Shown here piece by piece: positions 5,757 to 30,222 of a stretch of 36,919 nt of DNA. A model generated the notes under the pieces. The model searched no databases, had not been told where the DNA came from, and saw nothing but the letters and a program-made list of their open reading frames with translations. Within the stretch, counting starts at the first letter, position 1, and each line of letters begins with the position of its first letter. This DNA is from Acidimicrobiales bacterium (lineage in GTDB: Bacteria > Actinomycetota > Acidimicrobiia > Acidimicrobiales > Palsa-688), in assembly GCA_035533095.1 (NCBI GenBank), contig DATLUM010000078.1, positions 1 to 36,919 on the forward strand. Direction: 5' to 3'. Made by a program: the position numbers and the translations under genes.

Positions 5757-6002
5757 GCACAATGCATACACCCACCGGCCAGAGGTCACCGAGGCTTTCC
5801 GCGGGCCTCGCGTCACGTAGCGGCGATAGGCAGCGGTTGCGCCACGGCGTTCGGCGTGCGCGCTGTGGGACACCCCGGCTTTGGACGGCCTGGCTTCGGG
5901 TGTTCCGGGATCCGTCGATCGGCGCTGCTCCATCGCGGTCACAGGCATGTCGCGAGGAAGACACAGATGATAATCGGCGTGGCATCGCTGATCGCTTGTC
6001 AA
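5757..6002. other. stretch without a recognisable gene
   Basis: Open frames cross this stretch on both strands, but none has family-like sequence, a ribosome binding site or a sensible start. It lies between the antitoxin promoter and insertion-sequence-like repeats that abut the broken integrase. It is probably decayed element DNA. Confidence 0.4.
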
Positions 6003-19312: not shown

Positions 19313-20038
19313 GTGCACGTGAACGCCCCAGCTCGCGGAACACGGATGTCGTTGTCGGAGCTGGTTCAACGCAGCGGTGTGCCCGCCAGCACCATCCACC
19401 ACTACCGGCGGGCTGGGATGATCCCGCCCCCGGTACGCGAGGCGGCGAACCGTTTCGCGTACGACTCGCGCCATCTCGAGGCTCTTCTCCAGATCCGCTC
19501 GCACAGCTCGGACCCGGACTGCCGGGAACGGATCGTCGACGCTGCCATTCACGCCTTCCGGACACGCAGCTACAACGAGGTGACCGTCAGCGACATAGCG
19601 GAGGCGTCACACCTGGCGAAGGGCAGCGTCTACCGCTATTTCGAGTCGAAAGAGGACTTGCTCACCGCGGCGATCGAGAAGCTCCTGGAGCAGACCGCCG
19701 AACGATTCGAAGCGACTGTGCAGTCTCTCGGGGGGGCCGAAGGCCTCACCTCCGACCCCGGGAAGGCGGCGCTGGTGTTCGGCCATCTGCTGGTCGACGT
19801 TCTGCCGATCCTCCTGGAGCTGGGAGCGCGGGCGGCCAAGGGGCACGAGCCGAGCGCGGATCTCGCCCGCAAGGTCTTGCGAACCCTCGCCGAGACCGGG
19901 GGGCGGCCTTTCGTAAACGACGGAGACCAGGAGAGCGCGATCTCCGCCGGCCTCGGCGTGATCGAGCGAGCTTTCGCCACGGTGCTCTCGTGGGCGGTCG
20001 GCCCGGATTGGCCACCCGACAACGGGCTCGCCACCTGA
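19313..20038 (+). CDS. MerR-TetR fused transcriptional regulator
   Basis: 241 residues, GTG start with GAGGG 7 bases upstream. Residues 12-60 form a MerR-type DNA-binding unit (SLSELVQRSGVPASTIHHYR, then RAGMIPPP and NRFAYD). Residues 68-115 are a complete TetR helix-turn-helix (RIVDAAIHAF, VTVSDIAEASHLAKGSVYRY, FESKEDLL), followed by a TetR-like helical C-terminal domain (about 120-235). Two DNA-binding heads in one chain are unusual. The stop codon lies inside a 25-bp palindrome that precedes the hopanoid promoter, so this protein probably controls itself, the hopanoid operon, or both. Confidence 0.88.
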   Translation: MHVNAPARGTRMSLSELVQRSGVPASTIHHYRRAGMIPPPVREAANRFAYDSRHLEALLQIRSHSSDPDCRERIVDAAIHAFRTRSYNEVTVSDIAEASHLAKGSVYRYFESKEDLLTAAIEKLLEQTAERFEATVQSLGGAEGLTSDPGKAALVFGHLLVDVLPILLELGARAAKGHEPSADLARKVLRTLAETGGRPFVNDGDQESAISAGLGVIERAFATVLSWAVGPDWPPDNGLAT

Positions 20039-20098: not shown

Positions 20099-21040
20099 AT
20101 GACCACGCGGTCACTCTCTTACACACCCTCTGCTCACGCACCCACTGGCGGCACACCGACCGGAGACCTGACCGCCGGCGCCGGCGCGCCCCCTGACCTA
20201 CCCGTGACCGGCGAGGTCATGCGCCGGGCGTCGGGCGAGAACTTCAAGGTCGCGTCGAGGCTACTGCCCCGCCGCGTCCGCTCCGAGCTTCTCGGCCTCT
20301 ACGGGTACGCCCGCCTGGTCGACGAGATCGGCGACTCCTACGACGGTGACCGGATCGCCGCTCTGGACTCGGTGGAGTCGAGCCTCCTCCGGGAGATCGA
20401 AAGCCCCGATCCGGCGGCCCACCCCCTCGTCGCCCGCGCGGCGGCCATGGTTCGTGACGGCCGAATCTCGCGCCAGCCCCTCCTGAACCTGATCGAGGCC
20501 AACCGGCTGGACCAGACGGTCCACCGCTACGAGACCGCCGAGGAGCTCTACGGGTACTGCGCCCTGTCGGCGAACCCGGTCGGCCGGCTCGTGCTCCAGC
20601 TGTTCGGAGTCCTGACGCCCGAGCGCGTGGCCTGGTCCGACTCGATCTGCACAGGGCTGCAGCTCGTAGAGCACTGGCAGGACGTGGCGGAGGACGCCGC
20701 CGGCGGGCGGGTGTACCTGCCGGCCGAGGACATGTCCCGCTTCGGCGTCGCCGATGCCGAGCTCGCAGCGTGCGGCCCCGCACGTGCCGACCTGCGCTCT
20801 CTCATGGCGTTCGAGGCACGGCGCGCACGCGGCCTGCTCGAAGAGGGCGCTCCCCTGGTCGCCTCTCTTCGGGGAAGGCTCAGGTTCGCCGTGGCGGGAT
20901 TCGTAGCCGGCGGGCACGCTGCTCTGGACGCGCTCGCTCGGCAGGGTTTCGATCCCCTCGCCGGCGCCCCGCGCCCGTCCCGCCCAGCGGTGCTTCGCCA
21001 CCTGGGGAACGCGCTGATGCGGCGCCGGGAGCACTCGTGA
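20099..21040 (+). CDS. hpnC: squalene synthase HpnC (hydroxysqualene to squalene branch)
   Basis: Up to 313 residues of the trans-isoprenyl diphosphate synthase fold. The Asp-rich motifs are VDEIGDSYDGD and EHWQDVAEDAAGGRVYLP. With HpnD and HpnE it converts farnesyl diphosphate to squalene; HpnC turns presqualene diphosphate into hydroxysqualene. HpnC is told from HpnD by gene order and by the ENFKVASRLLPRR start. The ATG at 20099 lies at or before the predicted transcription start, and the first 35 residues are not family-like. GTG 20204 or ATG 20219, just before ASGENF, may be the true start. It is the first gene of the operon. Confidence 0.88.
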   Translation: MTTRSLSYTPSAHAPTGGTPTGDLTAGAGAPPDLPVTGEVMRRASGENFKVASRLLPRRVRSELLGLYGYARLVDEIGDSYDGDRIAALDSVESSLLREIESPDPAAHPLVARAAAMVRDGRISRQPLLNLIEANRLDQTVHRYETAEELYGYCALSANPVGRLVLQLFGVLTPERVAWSDSICTGLQLVEHWQDVAEDAAGGRVYLPAEDMSRFGVADAELAACGPARADLRSLMAFEARRARGLLEEGAPLVASLRGRLRFAVAGFVAGGHAALDALARQGFDPLAGAPRPSRPAVLRHLGNALMRRREHS

Positions 21041-21894
21041 ACGTCCCAGAGGCCTACGCCCGCTGCGAGGCGATCACCGCGGAGCAGGCGCGCAACTTCT
21101 CCTACGGCATCCGGCTCCTCCCTCGGGAGAAGCGCCAGGCGATGTCGGCGCTCTACGCGATGGCGCGCCGCATCGACGACGTCGGCGACGGGAACGCGCC
21201 CCCCGACCAGAAGCTCAGCGACCTCGCCGCCATCCGCAAGGATCTCGCCCAGATCTCGTCGCGCGACAAGACCGCATCTGCCGACGACCCCGTCCTGGTC
21301 GCACTTGCTGACGCGGCGCAGCGCTTCTCCTTGCCGATGAGCGCTCTCGACGAGCTCGTCGATGGCTGCGAGATGGACGTCAACGGCACCACCTACCGCA
21401 CCTTCGACGACCTCGTGGTTTACTGCCGGCGCGTCGCGGGCACGGTGGGCAGGCTCAGCCTCGGGGTGTACGGCAGCAGCGACACCGAGCGCGCCGTTGC
21501 GCTGGCGGACGCATTGGGCGTCGCGCTCCAGATCACCAACATCCTGCGCGACGTGGTCGAGGATCTCGCAGATATGGGCCGCGTGTACCTGCCCGAGCAG
21601 GACAGGGAGCGCTTCGGCATCGGGCCGGGACTGGAAGGCCCACGCGACAGGCTCCTCGCTCTGATCCTCTTCGAGGCCGCTCGGGCCGAGCAATGGTACG
21701 AAGAGGGCCTTCAGCTACTGCCCCTTCTGGATCGCCGGTCGCGGGCGTGCACTGCAGCGATGGCGGGCATATACCGGCGGCTGCTCACCACGATCCAGCA
21801 CGACCCCGAAGCGGTGCTGCGCGGCAGGATCTCGCTCGGCGGCGGCCAGAAGGCGCTCATTGCAGCCAGAGCCTTGACGAGGGGCGCCGCGTGA
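21037..21894 (+). CDS. hpnD: presqualene diphosphate synthase HpnD
   Basis: 285 residues from GTG 21037 (GTGA overlap with hpnC). HpnD joins two farnesyl diphosphates into presqualene diphosphate. The squalene/phytoene synthase signatures are both complete: RRIDDVGDGN near residue 48 and ALQITNILRDVVEDLADMGR with the NxxxDxxED pattern, then VYLPEQDRERFG. YGIRLLPREKRQAMSALYAM is the usual N-terminal helix. Longer open sequence upstream overlaps hpnC and is not family-like. Confidence 0.93.
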   Translation: MNVPEAYARCEAITAEQARNFSYGIRLLPREKRQAMSALYAMARRIDDVGDGNAPPDQKLSDLAAIRKDLAQISSRDKTASADDPVLVALADAAQRFSLPMSALDELVDGCEMDVNGTTYRTFDDLVVYCRRVAGTVGRLSLGVYGSSDTERAVALADALGVALQITNILRDVVEDLADMGRVYLPEQDRERFGIGPGLEGPRDRLLALILFEAARAEQWYEEGLQLLPLLDRRSRACTAAMAGIYRRLLTTIQHDPEAVLRGRISLGGGQKALIAARALTRGAA

Positions 21895-23288
21895 ACCGCC
21901 CTCGCGTCGTCGTGGCGGGCGGTGGACTCGCCGGCATCACCGCGGCGCTCGAGTGCGCCGACGCCGGCGCGCATGTAACCCTCGTCGAGAAGCGAACCGG
22001 GCTGGGCGGCTTGACCCGGTCCTTCCGCCACGGAGACCTGTGGCTCGACAACGGCCAGCACGTGTTCCTGCGTTGCTGCACCGAATACCTGTCGTTGCTG
22101 TACCGGATAGGCGCGGCCGATGAAGTCGAGTTGCAGGACCGGCTGGACATACCAGTCGTCTCACCCGCGCGCAACGCCGGCGGGCAACCGGTGATCGGCA
22201 ACCTGCGCAGATCGGGTTGGCCGGTGCCGCTGCATCTGGCCGGGTCGTTGGTGCGCTACCCGCATCTGGGCATCGCCGACCGGCTGAAGCTCGGCCGCGC
22301 GGTACTGGGCCTGTCACGGCTGAGGCTCGACGACCCGGCTCTCGACCTCCACACGTTCGCGTCGTGGTTGAGGGCGCACCACCAGAGCGACGCGGCGATC
22401 ACAGCGCTCTGGGATCTCATCACCGTTCCTACCGTCAACCTCCCCGCGGCGCAGGCGTCGCTGACGATGGCAGCCAAGGTCTTCAAGACCGGGTTGCTGA
22501 GCGAATCCAGCGCCGCCGACATCGGATGGAGCCGGGTGCCTCTCGGGCGACTCCACGGCGAGCGCGCTGCAGCGGCGCTCGAGGGCGCCGGCGTCGAAGT
22601 TCGCACCGGCGAGAGGGTGCGCCAGATCCGGACGCGGGTCCGTGGCGGGTTCGAGGTCCTCGGTGACGGCTGGTCGGCAGACGCAGACGGGGTGGTCGTC
22701 GCGGTGCCCCACGACGAGGTGGGCGCCCTTCTCCCGCAGGGATCCGTCCGCGCCCAAGAGAGGCTCGGCGATCTCGGCACATCGGCGGTGGTCGACGTTC
22801 ACCTGGTACTCGACCGGCGCGTAACCGAGTGGCCGGTCATGTCCGCTGTCGGATCGACGGTGCAGTGGGTGTTCGACCGGACATCGTCGTCGGGCCTCAC
22901 CAGCGGGCAACTGCTCGCTGTCTCGCTTTCCGCGGCGGACGCCCTCCTCCCCCGGCGACCCGAGGACATCGCGTCGGAAGTTCAAGCGGAGCTCGCGCGA
23001 CTGCTGCCGTCTTTTTCCCGGGCACGGGTTGTCGACTCGGTCGTCACGAAAGAGCGCCACGCGACGTTCAAGGCGGTGCCCGGCACGGCCGCTCTCCGGC
23101 CTCCCGCGGCAACCAGCCTGCCAGGCCTCGCCGTGGCAGGGGCGTGGACCGACACGGGATGGCCGGCGACCATGGAGGGGGCGGTGCGAAGCGGCACCGC
23201 GGCAGCGCGCGCGTGTCTCGCCGGCGCAGGGCGTGCCCTCAGAGATCGATCACTTGCAGGAGCTGGGCACGAAGAGGAGGTTGCGTGA
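21891..23288 (+). CDS. hpnE: hydroxysqualene dehydroxylase HpnE
   Basis: 465 residues from GTG 21891 (GTGA overlap with hpnD). An FAD-binding amine-oxidase-type fold begins with VVVAGGGLAGITAALECADA and LVEKRTGLGG (the Rossmann glycines and ribose-binding Glu). It ends with the second FAD contact GLAVAGAWTDTGWPATMEGA. HpnE reduces hydroxysqualene to squalene. The order HpnC-HpnD-HpnE matches the three-enzyme bacterial squalene route that replaces single-enzyme squalene synthase. The short C-terminal tail after residue 445 is not conserved-looking. Confidence 0.93.
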   Translation: MNRPRVVVAGGGLAGITAALECADAGAHVTLVEKRTGLGGLTRSFRHGDLWLDNGQHVFLRCCTEYLSLLYRIGAADEVELQDRLDIPVVSPARNAGGQPVIGNLRRSGWPVPLHLAGSLVRYPHLGIADRLKLGRAVLGLSRLRLDDPALDLHTFASWLRAHHQSDAAITALWDLITVPTVNLPAAQASLTMAAKVFKTGLLSESSAADIGWSRVPLGRLHGERAAAALEGAGVEVRTGERVRQIRTRVRGGFEVLGDGWSADADGVVVAVPHDEVGALLPQGSVRAQERLGDLGTSAVVDVHLVLDRRVTEWPVMSAVGSTVQWVFDRTSSSGLTSGQLLAVSLSAADALLPRRPEDIASEVQAELARLLPSFSRARVVDSVVTKERHATFKAVPGTAALRPPAATSLPGLAVAGAWTDTGWPATMEGAVRSGTAAARACLAGAGRALRDRSLAGAGHEEEVA

Positions 23289-24331
23289 CCACCCCCACCA
23301 TTGGTGTTCCCGAGGTGCTGGAACGAACCCGAGAGGCGATCACCCCCGCGATGGTCACCGCCATCGACAGGCTGGCGCCGGAGATCCGCCAGTTCGCCGC
23401 CTACCACATGGGATGGATCGACGCGGACGGCAAGGCCGTCGCGTCGCCCGGAGGCAAGGGAATCCGGCCGACCCTCGCGATGCTCGGCGCCGCCGCCGCA
23501 TGGGCAGACCCGTCAGTAGGAGTGCCCGGTGGCGTGGCCGTCGAGTTGGTGCACAACTTCTCGCTGATCCATGACGACATCATCGACGCCGACGTCGAGC
23601 GGCACCACCGCCCGACGGTGTGGTCCGTCTTCGGGGTCGGCCCCGCGATCGTCGCCGGCGACGCGCTGCAGATCCTCGCCCACCAGGTCCTCATGGAGAG
23701 CTCTCCCGATCACGGGCCACGCGCGTCCAGTGCTCTCGCAGACGCGACGGCCGCGATGATCGCGGGCCAGGCCGACGACATCGCTTTCGAGAAGCGCCGC
23801 GACGTGACCGTCGAGCAGTGCACGGCGATGTCCGCGGCCAAGACAGGCGCTCTCCTCGGTTGCGCCGCGTCCATCGGTGCGATCCTCGCAGGTGCCCCGC
23901 AGGCGACGATCGGGGCGCTGCGCGATTACGGGAAGCACCTCGGCCTGGCGTTCCAGGCCGTCGACGACCTGCTCGGCATCTGGGGGGACCCGAGCCGTAC
24001 CGGCAAACCTGCCGGTAGCGACCTGAGGCAGAGGAAGAAGTCGATGCCCGTCGTCTCCGCGCTCGCCGCCGGCGGAGCCGAAGCGGACGAGTTGCGCATG
24101 CTCATCGTCGGTCCCGCGGACTCCGAGAACCCGCTGCTGCCACTGACCGCGGACGAGATCGACCGCGCACGCTTCCTCGTCGAGAGCTGCGGCGGCCGTG
24201 AGTGGACGACCGTGCGTGCCAAGGCGAACCTCGACGCAGCGCTCGGCGCGCTCGAACGGGTGCGGCTTTCTGCTCGGCCGCGTCGCGACCTTGCCGACAT
24301 CGCTGTGTTCGTGGTGGAGCGCGAGGCGTGA
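23285..24331 (+). CDS. polyprenyl (farnesyl-type) diphosphate synthase
   Basis: 348 residues from GTG 23285 (GTGA overlap with hpnE). Class I trans-prenyltransferase motifs are GGKGIRPTL (the GGKR/xRP loop, with Gly in place of Lys/Arg), first Asp motif D97-D98-I-I-D101, a KTGALLG segment, and second Asp motif D227-D228 (FQAVDDLLGIWGD). It should extend DMAPP with IPP, most likely to farnesyl diphosphate for HpnD, given its position. The residues before the first Asp motif (LVHNFSLIH) include a bulky aromatic consistent with a short product, but chain length is not certain. Confidence 0.9.
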   Translation: MTTPTIGVPEVLERTREAITPAMVTAIDRLAPEIRQFAAYHMGWIDADGKAVASPGGKGIRPTLAMLGAAAAWADPSVGVPGGVAVELVHNFSLIHDDIIDADVERHHRPTVWSVFGVGPAIVAGDALQILAHQVLMESSPDHGPRASSALADATAAMIAGQADDIAFEKRRDVTVEQCTAMSAAKTGALLGCAASIGAILAGAPQATIGALRDYGKHLGLAFQAVDDLLGIWGDPSRTGKPAGSDLRQRKKSMPVVSALAAGGAEADELRMLIVGPADSENPLLPLTADEIDRARFLVESCGGREWTTVRAKANLDAALGALERVRLSARPRRDLADIAVFVVEREA

Positions 24332-26235
24332 CAGAAGCGCGGACGGTAACCGAGGCCGCCTCATCGCTTCGAAGAGCGTGCGACCACCTCCTGTCGTTGC
24401 AGAGCACCGACGGGTGGTGGAAGGCGGAGCTCGAGACAAACGTGACGATGGACGCCGAGGACCTTCTGCTACGGCACTACCTCGGCATCTCGGACCACGC
24501 GATCACCGAGCCGGCCGCGCGGTGGATCCGTCACAACCAGCGGCCCGACGGCACCTGGGGAACCTTCCACGGCGCACCCGGGGACCTGTCGGCGACGATC
24601 GAGGCGTACGTCGCCCTGCGGCTCGCTGGCGACGATCCGTCGGAACCGCCCATGGCCGCGGCCGCCGAATGGATCAGGTCCAACGGCGGTGTGGAACGAA
24701 GCAGGGTGTTCACGCGCATCTGGCTGGCGCTGATGGGTGCCTGGGATTGGGAGGACCTCCCCGTCCTGCCTCCCGAAGTCATGTTCCTGCCTTCGTGGGC
24801 GCCGCTCAACGTCTACGACTTCGCCTGCTGGGCACGACAGACCATCGTTGCCTTGACGATCGTCATGGCGCACCGCCCGTCGCGCCCGCTCGGCTTCCCG
24901 ATCGATGAGCTGTTCAGCGGCGGGCCGCGCCGTCTCGAGTCGAGCGGCCTCAGGGACCTCGCGAGCACGGGGGGACGCTTCCTCGCCCTGGACCGTCTGC
25001 TGCACCGCTACGAGAGGCTGCCCCGCTGGTTCCTCCCGCGTACCTTGCTGCGCAAGGCTGCCCTCACCAAGGCCGAGCAGTGGGTCGTCCGCCGCCAGGA
25101 GGCGGACGGCCTGTGGGGAGGGATCCAGCCACCCGTCGTCTACTCGGTCATCGCCCTGCAGCTCCAGGGCTACAGCCTCGACCACCCCATCATCAAGGCG
25201 GCTCTCGACGGCCTGGAAGGCTTCGTGGTCCACGACGACAAAGGCCGGCGTGTCGAAGCGTGCCAGTCACCTGTGTGGGACACGGCCCTCGCGGTGGTAG
25301 CGCTGTCCGACGCGGGTGTGGACCCCGGTGAACCCGCGATCAAGTCGGCAGTCGAGTGGCTCGTCCGCGAAGAGGTGCCCATCCGCGGCGACTGGGCGGT
25401 CAGGCGCCCCTCGCTCGGCGCCGGCGGTTGGGCGTTCGAGTTCGCCAACGACAACTACCCCGACATCGACGACACCGCCGAGGTGATAATCGCCCTGCGC
25501 AAGGCGGGGGTCGCCGCTGGGCGCGACTGCGAAGCGGCGTGCGAGCGCGGCGTCGCTTGGACTCTCGGCATGCAGAGCCGGGACGGGGGTTGGGGCGCCT
25601 TCGACGCCGACAACGACAGCCCCCTCGTCGCCGCACTCCCCTTCTGCGACTTCGGCGAGGTCACCGACCCGCCGTCTGCCGACGTGACCGCGCACGTCCT
25701 CGAGATGCTCGCGACCGAACCGGGAGTTCCGCCGGCGGTCCTCCAGTCCGCCACCCAGTGGCTCTGGAACGCCCAGGAGCCCGACGGGTCATGGTTCGGC
25801 CGCTGGGGCGTCAACTACGTGTACGGGACCGGAGCCGCCGTTCCCGCGCTGGTAGCAGCCGGCGCACGGCCGGAAGACCCGCGCATCCGGCGAGCGGTCG
25901 CGTGGCTCGAAGCCCACCAAAACGGCGACGGCGGCTGGGGAGAAGACCTCCGCTCCTATGTCGACCAGTCGTGGCGGGGCCGCGGCGAGTCCACCGCTTC
26001 CCAGACCGCCTGGGCGCTCCTCGCCCTGCTCGCAGCAGGCGAGCACGACTCAGACGCGACCCGGCGCGGCGTCGACTGGCTCGTCCGCAACCAGACCGAA
26101 GCCGGGACATGGGACGAGCCGTGGTTCACGGGGACCGGCTTCCCTTGGGACTTCTCGATCAACTACCACCTGTACCGGCTGGTCTGGCCGGTCATGGCCC
26201 TGGGCAGGTACGTGCGCGGAGCCGGCACGCCATGA
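24328..26235 (+). CDS. shc: squalene-hopene cyclase
   Basis: 635 residues from GTG 24328 (GTGA overlap). The catalytic DxDD motif is D379-I-D381-D382 in NYPDIDDTAEV, almost the same number as in the Alicyclobacillus enzyme. Several QW repeats are present (DGTWGTF, DGGWGAF, DGSWFGRWG, NGDGGWGED, AGTWDEPWFTGTGFP). It cyclises squalene to hopene and hopanol as a monotopic membrane enzyme. The upstream open sequence overlaps the prenyl synthase and is not used. This is the key gene that marks the cluster as hopanoid rather than carotenoid. Confidence 0.97.
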   Translation: MTEARTVTEAASSLRRACDHLLSLQSTDGWWKAELETNVTMDAEDLLLRHYLGISDHAITEPAARWIRHNQRPDGTWGTFHGAPGDLSATIEAYVALRLAGDDPSEPPMAAAAEWIRSNGGVERSRVFTRIWLALMGAWDWEDLPVLPPEVMFLPSWAPLNVYDFACWARQTIVALTIVMAHRPSRPLGFPIDELFSGGPRRLESSGLRDLASTGGRFLALDRLLHRYERLPRWFLPRTLLRKAALTKAEQWVVRRQEADGLWGGIQPPVVYSVIALQLQGYSLDHPIIKAALDGLEGFVVHDDKGRRVEACQSPVWDTALAVVALSDAGVDPGEPAIKSAVEWLVREEVPIRGDWAVRRPSLGAGGWAFEFANDNYPDIDDTAEVIIALRKAGVAAGRDCEAACERGVAWTLGMQSRDGGWGAFDADNDSPLVAALPFCDFGEVTDPPSADVTAHVLEMLATEPGVPPAVLQSATQWLWNAQEPDGSWFGRWGVNYVYGTGAAVPALVAAGARPEDPRIRRAVAWLEAHQNGDGGWGEDLRSYVDQSWRGRGESTASQTAWALLALLAAGEHDSDATRRGVDWLVRNQTEAGTWDEPWFTGTGFPWDFSINYHLYRLVWPVMALGRYVRGAGTP

Positions 26236-27770
26236 GCGCCGTCCCCGAGACCGCAGGCCCTGCCGGCGCCGGGCTGCTCGTGCTCTGCCCGCTCCGACTC
26301 GAGGCCCGCGCCGTGTCGTCCGCCTCCGTCGGGGCAACCGTCGTCAGGACGGGCGCGGGGATGTCCAAGGCGGCAGCTGCGGCGGACCGGGCGCTTGCCG
26401 GCCGGGCTCCTGGCCCGGTGGCCGTCGCCGGCGTCGCCGGAGCACTGGTCGACGGGTTGGAACCCGGCACCCTGGTCGTCGCCGACCGGGTCGTCGACGC
26501 GGCGGACGGCGCGCTCGTCGCCGAGCTCCCGTCGGCCGCATTGATCGCCGCCGCCCTCCGCCGGCGCGGTCTGCCTGTCGTTGTGGGGACAGTGGCCTCG
26601 TCCGAACGCCTGGTGCGCGGCTCCAAGGCCCGCGCCGGGCTGGCCGCTCTCGGGGCCGTGGCGGTCGACATGGAGACCGCTGCGGTGCTGCGCCGCCGGT
26701 GGGACCGGCCGGTAGCGGTGATCCGGGCGATCGCCGACACGCCCGGCCGGGAGCTCGGGTCCCCGTCGACGATCTCGTGCGGGCGGCGGGCGCTCGGCGC
26801 GCTCAAGGCCGCGGCACCCGTACTCGAGGAGTGGGCGGCCGTGACGGGGGCGAGGACGGTTGTGCTGGCGGGGCCCAGGTCGTTTTGCGCCGGCGTGGAG
26901 CGCGCCATCGAGACGGTGAGCAGGGCGCTCGAGCGGTTCGGGGCGCCGGTGTACGTTCGCCGACAGATAGTGCACAACCGCCATGTGGTGGAGGAGCTCG
27001 AGGAGCGCGGGGCGGTGTTCGTGCACGAGCTCGACGAGGTTCCCGACGGCGCGACGGTCGTGTACTCCGCGCACGGGGTGTCCCCCGCCGTGCGCTCCGC
27101 CGCCGCCGAACGCCAGCTCGAGGTCATAGACGCGACCTGCCCGCTCGTGGCCAAGGTCCACCACGAGGTCCACCGGTTCGCCAACCGCGGCTACCAGGTC
27201 GTGCTCATCGGCCACGCCGGGCACGACGAGACGGAGGGCACTCTCGGTGAGCATCCCGACGTGACACTGATCGAGAACGAAGCCGACGTCGAGACGATCG
27301 ACGTGCGCGACCCCGAGCGAATCGCTTACATAACCCAGACGACGCTCTCGCCCGGCGACGTCACGACGGTCGTCAGCGCACTCTCGAAGCGTTTCCCTTC
27401 GATCGTCGGCCCCAGCGCCGGCGACATCTGCTACGCCACGCAGAACCGCCAGGAGGGCGTGCAGGCGATCGCGGCGGACTGCGACCTGATGATCGTGGTC
27501 GGCTCGGCCAATTCGTCCAACACAGCCCGCCTCGTGGAAGTCGCGGAGCGGGCCGGTTGCCGAGCGGTGATGGTCGACGACGAGAGCGGTGTGGACCTCG
27601 TTTCGCTGCGCGGCGTGCGCACCGTCGGGGTGAGCGCCGGCGCTTCTGCTCCCCCGATCCTCGTGGACCGGCTAGTAAGGGCCTTGAGCGGTCTGGGGCC
27701 GCTGGAAGTCGAGGAGCGAGCGGTTCGCAAAGAGAACGTGAATTTCCCCCTACCCTTGGAGGTCCGCTAA
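26232..27770 (+). CDS. HpnG phosphorylase fused to IspH reductase
   Basis: 512 residues from ATG 26232 (ATGA overlap with shc). Residues 1-205 form a nucleoside-phosphorylase-fold domain like HpnG, which removes adenine from adenosylhopane (VAGVAGAL, VDMETAAVLRR). Residues 208-512 are IspH, the 4Fe-4S HMBPP reductase that makes IPP and DMAPP. Ligands C219 (FCAGVERAI), C303 (DATCPLVAK) and C400 (DICYATQNRQ) are present, as are H248, H281 and catalytic E333. Spacings C219-H248-H281-C303 match E. coli IspH exactly. Both domains look complete. A single chain joining precursor supply to side-chain processing is unusual. Confidence 0.93.
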   Translation: MSAVPETAGPAGAGLLVLCPLRLEARAVSSASVGATVVRTGAGMSKAAAAADRALAGRAPGPVAVAGVAGALVDGLEPGTLVVADRVVDAADGALVAELPSAALIAAALRRRGLPVVVGTVASSERLVRGSKARAGLAALGAVAVDMETAAVLRRRWDRPVAVIRAIADTPGRELGSPSTISCGRRALGALKAAAPVLEEWAAVTGARTVVLAGPRSFCAGVERAIETVSRALERFGAPVYVRRQIVHNRHVVEELEERGAVFVHELDEVPDGATVVYSAHGVSPAVRSAAAERQLEVIDATCPLVAKVHHEVHRFANRGYQVVLIGHAGHDETEGTLGEHPDVTLIENEADVETIDVRDPERIAYITQTTLSPGDVTTVVSALSKRFPSIVGPSAGDICYATQNRQEGVQAIAADCDLMIVVGSANSSNTARLVEVAERAGCRAVMVDDESGVDLVSLRGVRTVGVSAGASAPPILVDRLVRALSGLGPLEVEERAVRKENVNFPLPLEVR

Positions 27771-28775
27771 GTGGGAATACCACTTCGTCAGAGCATCAAG
27801 ATCGGCACCTACCTCGCCCGCCAGAAGCTCGCCGGGCGTGACAAGTTCCCCCTCATCGTGGAGCTGGAGCCGCTGTTCGCCTGCAACCTGGAGTGCAACG
27901 GATGCGGGAAGATCCAGTACCCGACGGAGGTGCTCCGCAAGCGGCTGACTGTCGAGCAGGCGGTCGCTGCGATCGAGGAGTGCCGGGCCCCGATGGTGTC
28001 GATCGCCGGCGGTGAACCGCTCCTGCACCCAGACATCCACACCATGACCCAGGAGCTGCTCGATCGCGGCCGCTTCGTCTACCTCTGCACGAACGCGCTC
28101 CTGCTCGAGCGCAAGCTCGACAGGTTCAAGCCGCATCCCCGTTTCTCGTGGGTGGTTCACGTGGACGGTCTGCGGGAACGCCACGACGACTCGGTCAGCC
28201 GCGAGGGAACCTTCGACAAGGCAGTAGCCGCAATTCGCAAGGCGAAGGAACTCGGCTTCAAGGTGAACACCAACACCACCTTCTTCAACACCGACTCCCC
28301 GAAGACCGTCCGCGAGATCCTCGACTTCCTCAACGACGAGCTCCAGGTCGACCAGATGATGATCTCACCGGGTTACGCCTACGAGAAGGCGCCCGACCAG
28401 GTCCACTTTCTCAGCCCGAGAAGCTCCACGGCCCTGTTCGCCGACGCGTTCGCCGACGGCAGGCGCAAGCACTGGCGCCTCAACCACAGCCCTCTGTTCC
28501 TCGACTTCCTCGAAGGCAAGGCCGAGTTCGATTGCACGCCGTGGGGAATCCCGAGCTATTCCGTGTTCGGTTGGCAGCGCCCCTGCTACCTCATGGCGGA
28601 CGGCTACGCCGAGACATACCAGGAGCTCATCGAGACCACGGACTGGGACCGCTACGGCCGGGGCAAGGATCCTCGCTGCGCCAACTGCATGGCGCACTGC
28701 GGTTACGAGCCGAGCGCGGTGCTGGCGACAACCAGGTCGTTGCGACAATCCCTGCGGGCTGCCATAGGCTCATGA
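27771..28775 (+). CDS. hpnH: adenosylhopane synthase HpnH (radical SAM)
   Basis: 334 residues, GTG start directly after the previous stop, with GGAGG 8 bases upstream. The radical SAM cluster motif is C38-x3-C42-x2-C45 (FACNLECNGC), followed by the SAM-binding IAGGEPLLHPD. A C-terminal cysteine set (CTPWG, RPCYL, CANCMAHCG) is also typical of HpnH. The enzyme couples the 5'-deoxyadenosyl group to hopene (diploptene), the first step of side-chain building. Its product is the substrate of the HpnG domain encoded just before it. Confidence 0.96.
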   Translation: MGIPLRQSIKIGTYLARQKLAGRDKFPLIVELEPLFACNLECNGCGKIQYPTEVLRKRLTVEQAVAAIEECRAPMVSIAGGEPLLHPDIHTMTQELLDRGRFVYLCTNALLLERKLDRFKPHPRFSWVVHVDGLRERHDDSVSREGTFDKAVAAIRKAKELGFKVNTNTTFFNTDSPKTVREILDFLNDELQVDQMMISPGYAYEKAPDQVHFLSPRSSTALFADAFADGRRKHWRLNHSPLFLDFLEGKAEFDCTPWGIPSYSVFGWQRPCYLMADGYAETYQELIETTDWDRYGRGKDPRCANCMAHCGYEPSAVLATTRSLRQSLRAAIGS

Positions 28776-28779
28776 CCCG

Positions 28780-30222
28780 ATGGGGTTCGATCTTCAAGGA
28801 ATTCTGAGCGCACGTTCGGGCGAGGGCGCGGCCCTCTGGGGCCGTTACCTGAACCCGGTAGCACCCAAGGTGCTCCACTCGATCGGGTTCGACCGCCAGT
28901 GGGAGCGGGCGGGGGGGAGCTACATCCATGACTCCACCGGCGCCCGCTACCTCGACTACCTGTCCGGGTTCGGGGTGTTCGGGGTGGGCCGCTCGAACTA
29001 CAAGGTCCGCCAGGTGCTCCACGACGCCCTCGACGCGGATCTCGCCGACATGGTGCAGATGGACACCCCCCTGCTTGCAGGCCTGCTCGGGGAGGCTCTC
29101 ATCGAGCGGGCCCCGTACCTCGACAGGGTGTACTTCTCCAGCAGCGGCACCGAGGCGGTCGAGGCGGCGCTGAAGTTCGCCCGGTACTCGACGGGCCGGC
29201 GGCGGGTGATCTACTGCGACCACGCCTTCCACGGTTTGACGTCCGGCTCACTTTCGGTGAACGGAGCCAGGGAGTTCAGGGCCGGGTTCGGGCCGCTCCT
29301 GCCCGCGACGATGGTTCCTTTCGGCGACCTCGACGCGCTCCGCCGCGAACTGGCCGCAGGCGATGTCGCCGCCTTCATCGTCGAACCGGTACAGGGAAAG
29401 ACGGTCCTGGTCGCGCCGCCGGGCTACCTGGCCGAAGCGGCCGCGCTCGTGCACAAGCACGGGGCCCTCCTGATATGCGACGAGGTTCAGACCGGGCTCG
29501 GGCGCACCGGCAAGTTCCTGAGCCACGAGTACGACGAAGTCGAGCCGGACATCGTCACCGTCGCCAAGACGCTCTCCGGCGGCTTCGTCCCGGTAGCCGC
29601 GACGATGGCGACCAACGCTGTGTTCGAGAAGGTCTACTCCGGGCTGGACCGCATGCTGGTCCACGACTCGACCTACAGCGGCAACACGTTGGCCATGGCC
29701 GCCGGCTTGGCGACGCTGGCCATCCTCGACGACGAGGGGCTGATCGCGAACGCCGCGACGGTCGGAGCGGAGATCCAGTCGAAGCTTCGCGAGGCCGCCT
29801 CACGATACGAGCTCGTGAGCGACGTTCGCGGCCGGGGACTCATGATCGGCATCGAGTTCGCCCGGCCCGGGTCGTGGCGGCTTCGCCGGCGCTGGGGACC
29901 CTTGACCGCCGCCCGGCGGGGCCTGTTCACCCAGATGGTCGTGTGCGCCCTGTTCGAGCAGCACCACATCGTCACCCAGACCGCCGGCGACCACGTCGAC
30001 GTGCTCAAGATCCTCCCGCCCCTCGTGACCAACTCCGAGGAGGCCGGTTATTTCGTCGAATCGTTCTGCTCGGTGATGGACTCGATCCACGACAGCTCCC
30101 GCCCGGTGTGGCACTTCGGATGGGGGCTCACCACCCGGGTCGCCGGGGTTCAGGCCGGACGCAGAGGCAGTCGAGGCGCATCGAGAGGTCGGTCTGCCCT
30201 GCGTTCGCCGAAGACGGACTGA
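28780..30222 (+). CDS. hpnO: class III aminotransferase, HpnO-like
   Basis: 480 residues, ATG 4 bases after the hpnH stop. A fold-type I PLP enzyme of class III: SSSGTEAVEAALKFAR phosphate loop, HAFHG, LLICDEVQTGLGRTG, and the Schiff-base Lys in TVAKTLSGG. In hopanoid clusters such enzymes (HpnO) convert the ribosyl or aldehyde end of the side chain to aminobacteriohopanetriol. The position as last gene of the operon supports that, though acetylornithine-type transaminases look similar. The last ~35 residues are basic and low-complexity. Confidence 0.82.
   Translation: MGFDLQGILSARSGEGAALWGRYLNPVAPKVLHSIGFDRQWERAGGSYIHDSTGARYLDYLSGFGVFGVGRSNYKVRQVLHDALDADLADMVQMDTPLLAGLLGEALIERAPYLDRVYFSSSGTEAVEAALKFARYSTGRRRVIYCDHAFHGLTSGSLSVNGAREFRAGFGPLLPATMVPFGDLDALRRELAAGDVAAFIVEPVQGKTVLVAPPGYLAEAAALVHKHGALLICDEVQTGLGRTGKFLSHEYDEVEPDIVTVAKTLSGGFVPVAATMATNAVFEKVYSGLDRMLVHDSTYSGNTLAMAAGLATLAILDDEGLIANAATVGAEIQSKLREAASRYELVSDVRGRGLMIGIEFARPGSWRLRRRWGPLTAARRGLFTQMVVCALFEQHHIVTQTAGDHVDVLKILPPLVTNSEEAGYFVESFCSVMDSIHDSSRPVWHFGWGLTTRVAGVQAGRRGSRGASRGRSALRSPKTD

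Follow-up and report, generated by a model that had tools for sequence, protein, structure and literature searches.

An Acidimicrobiales bacterium (assembly GCA_035533095.1) encodes on contig DATLUM010000078.1 a single protein that joins an HpnG-like nucleoside phosphorylase to IspH, the enzyme of the last step of the methylerythritol phosphate (MEP) pathway, and the gene lies in a hopanoid (hpn) operon. We analyzed positions 1 to 36,919 of this contig, referred to here as the window. It is clear from our results that the HpnG-IspH fusion is a real, conserved two-domain protein, and that it is old and widespread. The protein is probably bifunctional, with its IspH half serving as a dedicated, operon-controlled source of isopentenyl diphosphate (IPP) and dimethylallyl diphosphate (DMAPP) for hopanoids. 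We infer both enzyme activities, the supply role, and any benefit of the physical link from sequence and its comparison.

The fusion gene and its two halves

The fusion gene occupies positions 26232 to 27770 of the plus strand, and its single open frame translates to 512 residues from an ATG start to a TAA stop, with a stop only at the end. An HpnG-like domain with the fold of the nucleoside phosphorylases and methylthioadenosine/S-adenosylhomocysteine nucleosidases (MTAN) covers about residues 1 to 205 (26232 to 26846), and the IspH domain covers about residues 207 to 512 (26850 to 27767). In Pfam, PNP_UDP_1 matches residues 35 to 175 (56.6 bits, cut-off 25.1) and LYTB matches residues 210 to 485 (303.7 bits, cut-off 24.5). 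The AlphaFold2 model, for which the input was the protein of the window together with 34 fused relatives, has a mean pLDDT of 92.6 and a pTM of 0.88; in it the final HpnG helix stops at residue 203 and the opening IspH strand begins at residue 208, with residues 204 to 207 (26841 to 26852) as the linker. The first-pass annotation of this DNA, made from the sequence alone, had described a true fusion of two complete domains through a short linker, and all three descriptions hold: there is one frame with many independent in-frame copies elsewhere, both domains are supported by domain matches, two folds, and intact active sites, and the model leaves about four linking residues.

The joined form has been kept with little change at its junction. 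Among 73 full-length fused proteins, taken from 113 fused loci after duplicates and cut sequences were excluded, W201 and P215 bound a stretch of 15 residues in 72 and of 17 in the remaining one. In 34 of 34 pairs with at least 80% identity, the ratio of nonsynonymous to synonymous substitution rates (dN/dS) was below 0.5 for both domains, ranging from 0.04 to 0.19 for IspH and from 0.07 to 0.48 for HpnG, by a simple counting method and with pairs that overlap and are not independent. By this measure, both domains are under purifying selection, and both halves look to have been retained as working enzymes. The source assembly consists of 142 contigs, and a missing stop or a chimeric assembly might in principle produce such a gene; we rejected such an artefact, to which we give almost no credence, because independent in-frame fusions are present in all 80 of the best named loci described below, isolate genomes among them. 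The same independent copies exclude a stop codon hidden by sequence error between the domains, a risk that the first-pass annotation had raised. In Pseudonocardia sp. CNS-139 (L139, from position 6001), the fused frame is broken within the IspH half by a frameshift or a sequencing error.

The IspH half has the active-site residues of an ordinary IspH at every position checked. NCBIfam IspH models cover residues 203 to 512; NF002189 gives the best score (420 bits) but falls under its cut-off of 444, whereas NF002190 (410.5 bits, cut-off 389) and TIGR00216 (304 bits, cut-off 187.85) are passed. The three cluster cysteines and the catalytic glutamate claimed at first pass are present as Cys219 (E. 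coli C12; 26886 to 26888), Cys303 (C96; 27138 to 27140), Cys400 (C197; 27429 to 27431), and Glu333 (E126; 27228 to 27230), all on the plus strand. We checked 13 positions (C12, H41, H74, C96, H124, E126, T167, T168, C197, S225, S226, N227, and S269 in E. coli numbering), which we take to be cluster ligands or contacts of the substrate 4-hydroxy-3-methylbut-2-enyl diphosphate (HMBPP). The IspH set comprised 169 loci, 164 of them full length, which reduced to 137 distinct sequences (82 fused and 55 unfused). All 13 residues are identical to those of E. coli in the window protein and in every one of the 82 distinct fused sequences, and the unfused sequences retain them too, except for one S226A. 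Foldseek matched the IspH part best to E. coli IspH structures (E 2.3e-32), several of them with HMBPP.

This invariance and these fold matches weigh heavily against the reading that the IspH half has left HMBPP reduction and now serves as a reductase in building the side chain, for example in a reduction after HpnG, which we judge very improbable. Aldehyde reduction is, to our knowledge, not a known IspH chemistry, and this too counts against such a role. What speaks for it is the fusion to HpnG itself, whose product is reduced next by an enzyme not yet established according to PMC12583986 and PMC9228677, together with the finding that the fused IspH is never the sole IspH in the 39 genomes checked. 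Slightly more improbable still is the specific form of this idea in which the fused IspH, having given up HMBPP reduction or keeping it as a second activity, would give ribosylhopane or its phosphate a side chain of open or anhydro form, the HpnG product being handed between domains.

The HpnG half is named for its position (SHC-HpnG-HpnH, where SHC is squalene-hopene cyclase), its fold, its relatives, and its conserved residues, and not from a curated cut-off. Foldseek matched it to methylthioadenosine/S-adenosylhomocysteine nucleosidases, with MTAN 4f1w as the best (E 5.3e-10, TM 0.68 by target length). Glu24 in the first loop (26301 to 26303) and Glu148 in a D-M-E motif (26673 to 26675) are glutamate in 73 of 73 full-length fused proteins, and Asp169 (26736 to 26738) is aspartate in 72 and glutamate in one; all three codons are on the plus strand. 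We take Glu24, judged by its place in the first loop, to be the equivalent of the catalytic Glu12 of MTAN, Glu148 to be the ribose-binding glutamate, and Asp169 to be a general acid like MTAN Asp197. A profile built from the 73 fused HpnG domains recognizes the separate HpnG of family f57 hpn clusters at 158 to 180 bits in 11 of 11 loci, and it gives 69 to 87 bits for HpnG-like genes adjoining HpnH in a further seven loci, of family f53. Separate HpnG-like proteins of four genomes (G011, G437, G014, and G001; loci L063, L064, L062, and L068) reach 48 to 73 bits and, as far as these scores go, may be HpnG or other nucleosidases. A genome-wide model search of the source genome gave no further HpnG-model match beyond the fusion.

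Distribution of the fusion

To find the same two-domain order elsewhere had been proposed in the first-pass annotation, and the order indeed recurs in many actinobacterial hopanoid clusters. Within the order, 61 genomes were searched, namely the source and 60 relatives, with 32 in the window's family and 29 in other families. The fusion is present in 23 of the 32, three of these copies being cut by contig ends (G022, G025, and G027). G011 has the IspH without HpnG, and G013 has SHC followed by the first 44 matched HpnG residues before its contig ends, which leaves undecided whether its gene is fused; seven of the 32 genomes have neither the fusion nor the IspH-only form. No complete fusion was found among the 29 genomes from other families. 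In one of them, G051 (family f21), SHC and HpnG residues 15 to 93 stand at the end of one contig, and a second contig end carries the final 114 IspH residues and HpnH; these are probably pieces of one fused gene split by assembly.

In a sample of 396 genomes across the phylum, 32 have HpnH, and the fusion is found in five of these (the source, G117, G239, G325, and G353). In G437, the interval from SHC to HpnH contains IspH and lacks HpnG, and 11 genomes, all of family f57, have a separate HpnG. For the remaining 15 genomes, 13 loci were viewed, and no IspH adjoins HpnH within 1.5 kb in these. Among named genomes, 520 stretches matched, 431 were confirmed, and the best 80 were analyzed; because the query crossed the junction, fusions are favored in this set, and it gives no frequency. 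The 80 loci come from genera including Amycolatopsis, Prauserella, Pseudonocardia, Nocardia, Kribbella, Nonomuraea, Actinomadura, Modestobacter, Parafrankia, and Desertimonas. An upstream SHC is present in 74 of the 80 and a downstream HpnH in 76, with 70 loci having both; contig ends account for five of the six missing SHC and three of the four missing HpnH. In a plasmid collection, 85 records matched, and none covered 80% of the query. Records titled Acidobacteriota (L078) and Melainabacteria (L150) hold fused clusters of the actinobacterial kind, and at least the title of L078 looks wrong.

A probable dedicated precursor supply for hopanoids

The first-pass annotation had asked whether the genome contains another ispH, and it does: the source genome encodes a separate IspH, 42% identical to the fused half, which in the IspH tree falls in a different clade, with IspH from elsewhere in the order. 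Likewise, each of the 38 isolate genomes tested, which correspond to 38 loci among the 80 named ones, has a minimum of two IspH genes. A role of the fused IspH as the sole IspH was thus rejected for the source genome and the 38 isolates, each of which has a further copy. The second IspH of the source genome makes the fused one an extra copy, which favors a dedicated precursor supply, and the fused IspH shows both marks of a pathway-dedicated extra IspH, namely a second IspH elsewhere and a terpenoid operon context. Other MEP genes also lie in hopanoid clusters. DXS was found in nine and IspG in three of the 80 named fused loci within the flanking sequence covered; in three Nocardia clusters (L112, L120, and L123), three MEP enzymes are present, the fused IspH and then DXS and IspG after HpnH. 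In family f57, where HpnG is separate, IspG and DXS follow HpnH in seven of 11 clusters. The presence of DXS and IspG in both kinds of cluster implies that MEP genes have joined hopanoid clusters repeatedly, and this lends support to the supply role.

In the mechanism that we propose, the N-terminal domain would remove adenine from adenosylhopane, the HpnH product, to give ribosylhopane or its phosphate, and the C-terminal domain would act as an ordinary [4Fe-4S] HMBPP reductase making IPP and DMAPP, as a hopanoid-dedicated extra copy alongside the housekeeping IspH. Because the fused IspH would be translated within the hpn operon, rising hopanoid synthesis should automatically raise the amount of enzyme for the final, cluster-dependent step of the MEP pathway. 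The link between HpnG and IspH would most likely be one of dosage and expression, and perhaps also of location: one polypeptide would give equal dosage of the two, in line with the fixed ratio suggested at first pass, provided that the protein stays whole, and channeling is unlikely because the two reactions are not consecutive.

Several observations weigh against this supply role or against the naming of the parts. IspG and DXS are each single in the source genome, and with only IspH doubled, supply would be relieved only if IspH limits flux. Most HpnH-bearing genomes of the phylum sample do without the fusion, which only the five of 32 have. Two named loci depart from the usual neighborhood with no contig end nearby that could account for it: in L109, the 1.5 kb upstream contains no recognized SHC, and in L103, the 5.2 kb downstream contains no HpnH. 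The curated HpnG model TIGR03468 matches residues 19 to 175 at 62.8 bits, short of its family cut-off of 187.1; the one stand-alone HpnG tested from an f57 actinobacterial hpn cluster scores 77.5 bits, likewise under the cut-off, which may mean that the model is too narrowly drawn for HpnG of this phylum. Finally, L022 (1300 to 2274) and L036 (1468 to 2436) have the order SHC-IspH-HpnH without an HpnG domain, the IspH beginning at the SHC stop, and this layout indicates that IspH can fill its role without being physically linked to HpnG.

These unfused loci bear directly on the question of whether the link matters at all. Two co-transcribed neighbors may have been joined by chance and kept as harmless, each domain working alone and the link functionless, and we regard this as a possible but less probable account. 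It is favored by the distance between the HpnG and IspH reactions in the pathway, by L022, which keeps IspH in place without HpnG, and by six other stand-alone IspH that group with the fused ones. It is less easily squared with the persistence of the joined form across many families, where a new stop and start could easily have separated the genes, or with the near-constant junction. That constancy would also suit a hopanoid assembly, a possibility raised in the first-pass annotation, in which the HpnG half and its partner HpnH hold IspH near the prenyl and squalene enzymes so that IPP and DMAPP are made on the spot. MTAN relatives of the HpnG half are dimers. The presence of both SHC and HpnH in 70 of 80 loci fits an assembly, as does the two-domain model, with its high overall pTM, which is an overall figure only and does not score the placement of one domain against the other. 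Prenyl and squalene synthases must, however, still act on IPP and DMAPP before SHC and HpnH can, and the link is absent in L022; an assembly therefore appears unlikely to us, and a dedicated supply of precursors, coupled chiefly through dosage and expression, is our preferred reading.

Origin of the fusion

In the phylogeny called for at first pass, the fused IspH group together, but with unfused copies inside the group. In both the IspH tree and a reduced version (35 of the 82 fused sequences, with the E. coli sequence and L169 omitted), the fused sequences group with L022, L036, and six further stand-alone IspH; in the first tree, the E. coli sequence also lies inside the fused-containing group, on a long branch. 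An exclusive clade of fused IspH was rejected (approximately unbiased [AU] test, p 4.8e-7), because L022 falls within the starred set of the window's close relatives. A clade of fused sequences plus L022 is also disfavored (AU p 0.013), and one with both L022 and L036 is borderline (p 0.050). The fused sequences with L022, L036, L037, L047, L164, L166, L168, and L170 form one side of a branch with a support of 87, which is not starred. Most simply, L022 would have lost HpnG, and no relic is seen between its SHC stop and IspH. L036 and the six other stand-alone copies may be losses too or may be older than the fusion. A single origin followed by losses would be the simplest story, and it is not proven.

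Stand-alone IspH that group with the fused ones also have terpene-like or odd neighbors elsewhere, namely a polyprenyl synthase (L206 and L208), DXS (L209), and, for L207, two SrpI-like encapsulin shells with cyclic nucleotide (cNMP)-binding domains. On a plasmid of Streptomyces sp. YIM 121038 (L174, 6922 to 10406), a polyprenyl synthetase, an IspH, and a cytochrome P450 stand in a row; this IspH groups with ordinary actinobacterial IspH and not with the fused ones.

The surrounding hopanoid operon

The hopanoid context claimed at first pass was upheld, as the fusion lies between SHC and HpnH within an hpn operon with the same-strand order HpnC, HpnD, HpnE, polyprenyl synthase, SHC, fusion, HpnH, and class-III aminotransferase, all on the plus strand. 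Both hpnC (20099 to 21040; TIGR03464, 286 bits) and hpnD (21034 to 21894, start approximate; TIGR03465, 287 bits) score above the cut-offs of their models. The hpnE open frame spans 21693 to 23288, although translation probably starts near 21.9 kb (TIGR03467 matches from residue 72, with 414 bits), and is followed by a polyprenyl diphosphate synthase open frame (22829 to 24331; PF00348, 179 bits, domain from residue 201). The stop of shc, or hpnF (24202 to 26235; TIGR01507, 742 bits), overlaps the ATG of the fusion (ATGA), and hpnH, with a GTG start (27771 to 28775; TIGR03470, 518 bits), begins immediately after the TAA. The class-III aminotransferase (28780 to 30222; PF00202, 289 bits) is hpnO by position only. 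Just 5' of hpnC, a gene at 19313 to 20035 on the plus strand encodes an unusual protein with a MerR-type helix-turn-helix (residues 12 to 62) and then a TetR-type one (residues 74 to 119), possibly a regulator of the operon.

Relation to known systems and significance

Each half of the protein is already known, as are extra IspH in terpenoid operons and other fusions of hopanoid enzymes and of IspH. The N-terminal half shares with HpnG (TIGR03468) its place between SHC and HpnH, its fold, and its conserved residues, but is fused to IspH and scores 62.8 bits against the 187.1 cut-off. The C-terminal half shares with IspH/LytB (TIGR00216, EC 1.17.7.4) the whole domain, the three cysteines, the catalytic glutamate, and the substrate residues, but it has an N-terminal HpnG domain, lies in an hpn operon, and belongs to a clade apart from the organism's own housekeeping IspH. 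The closest precedent for the logic of a supply role is Rv3382c (LytB1) of the isotuberculosinol operon, which, according to PMC3470408, complements an E. coli lytB strain and is proposed to have raised flux; it is likewise a functional extra LytB in a terpenoid operon with a second LytB besides, but it is unfused and serves a diterpene pathway. The HpnCD fusion described in PMC5462960 also joins two genes of a hopanoid operon, although these are two steps of squalene synthesis and not both ends of the pathway. One passage of that paper places hpnH of SD1 Acidobacteria in a cluster with shc and an unfused ispH; another gives ispA instead, and the ispH statement may be a slip. IspH is also fused to ribosomal protein S1 (NF000907), where the partner is a translation protein and IspH matches the start of the 671-position model. 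The IspDF fusion, called common in the review PMC13001223, similarly joins non-consecutive isoprenoid enzymes, but both of its partners are MEP enzymes. An HpnG-IspH fusion was not found described in the literature searched, which left subscription papers mostly outside and so does not prove absence, and no NCBIfam model for the fusion was among the matches to the protein.

This actinobacterial form escapes the curated HpnG model, and our results suggest that annotation as plain IspH would conceal the HpnG of these organisms. One conserved protein ties the synthesis of isoprenoid building blocks to a late step in the formation of hopanoids, membrane lipids that double as geological biomarkers, and the fusion would serve as a natural tag for hopanoid-dedicated precursor supply. 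As it occurs in cultured actinobacteria, this role is testable.

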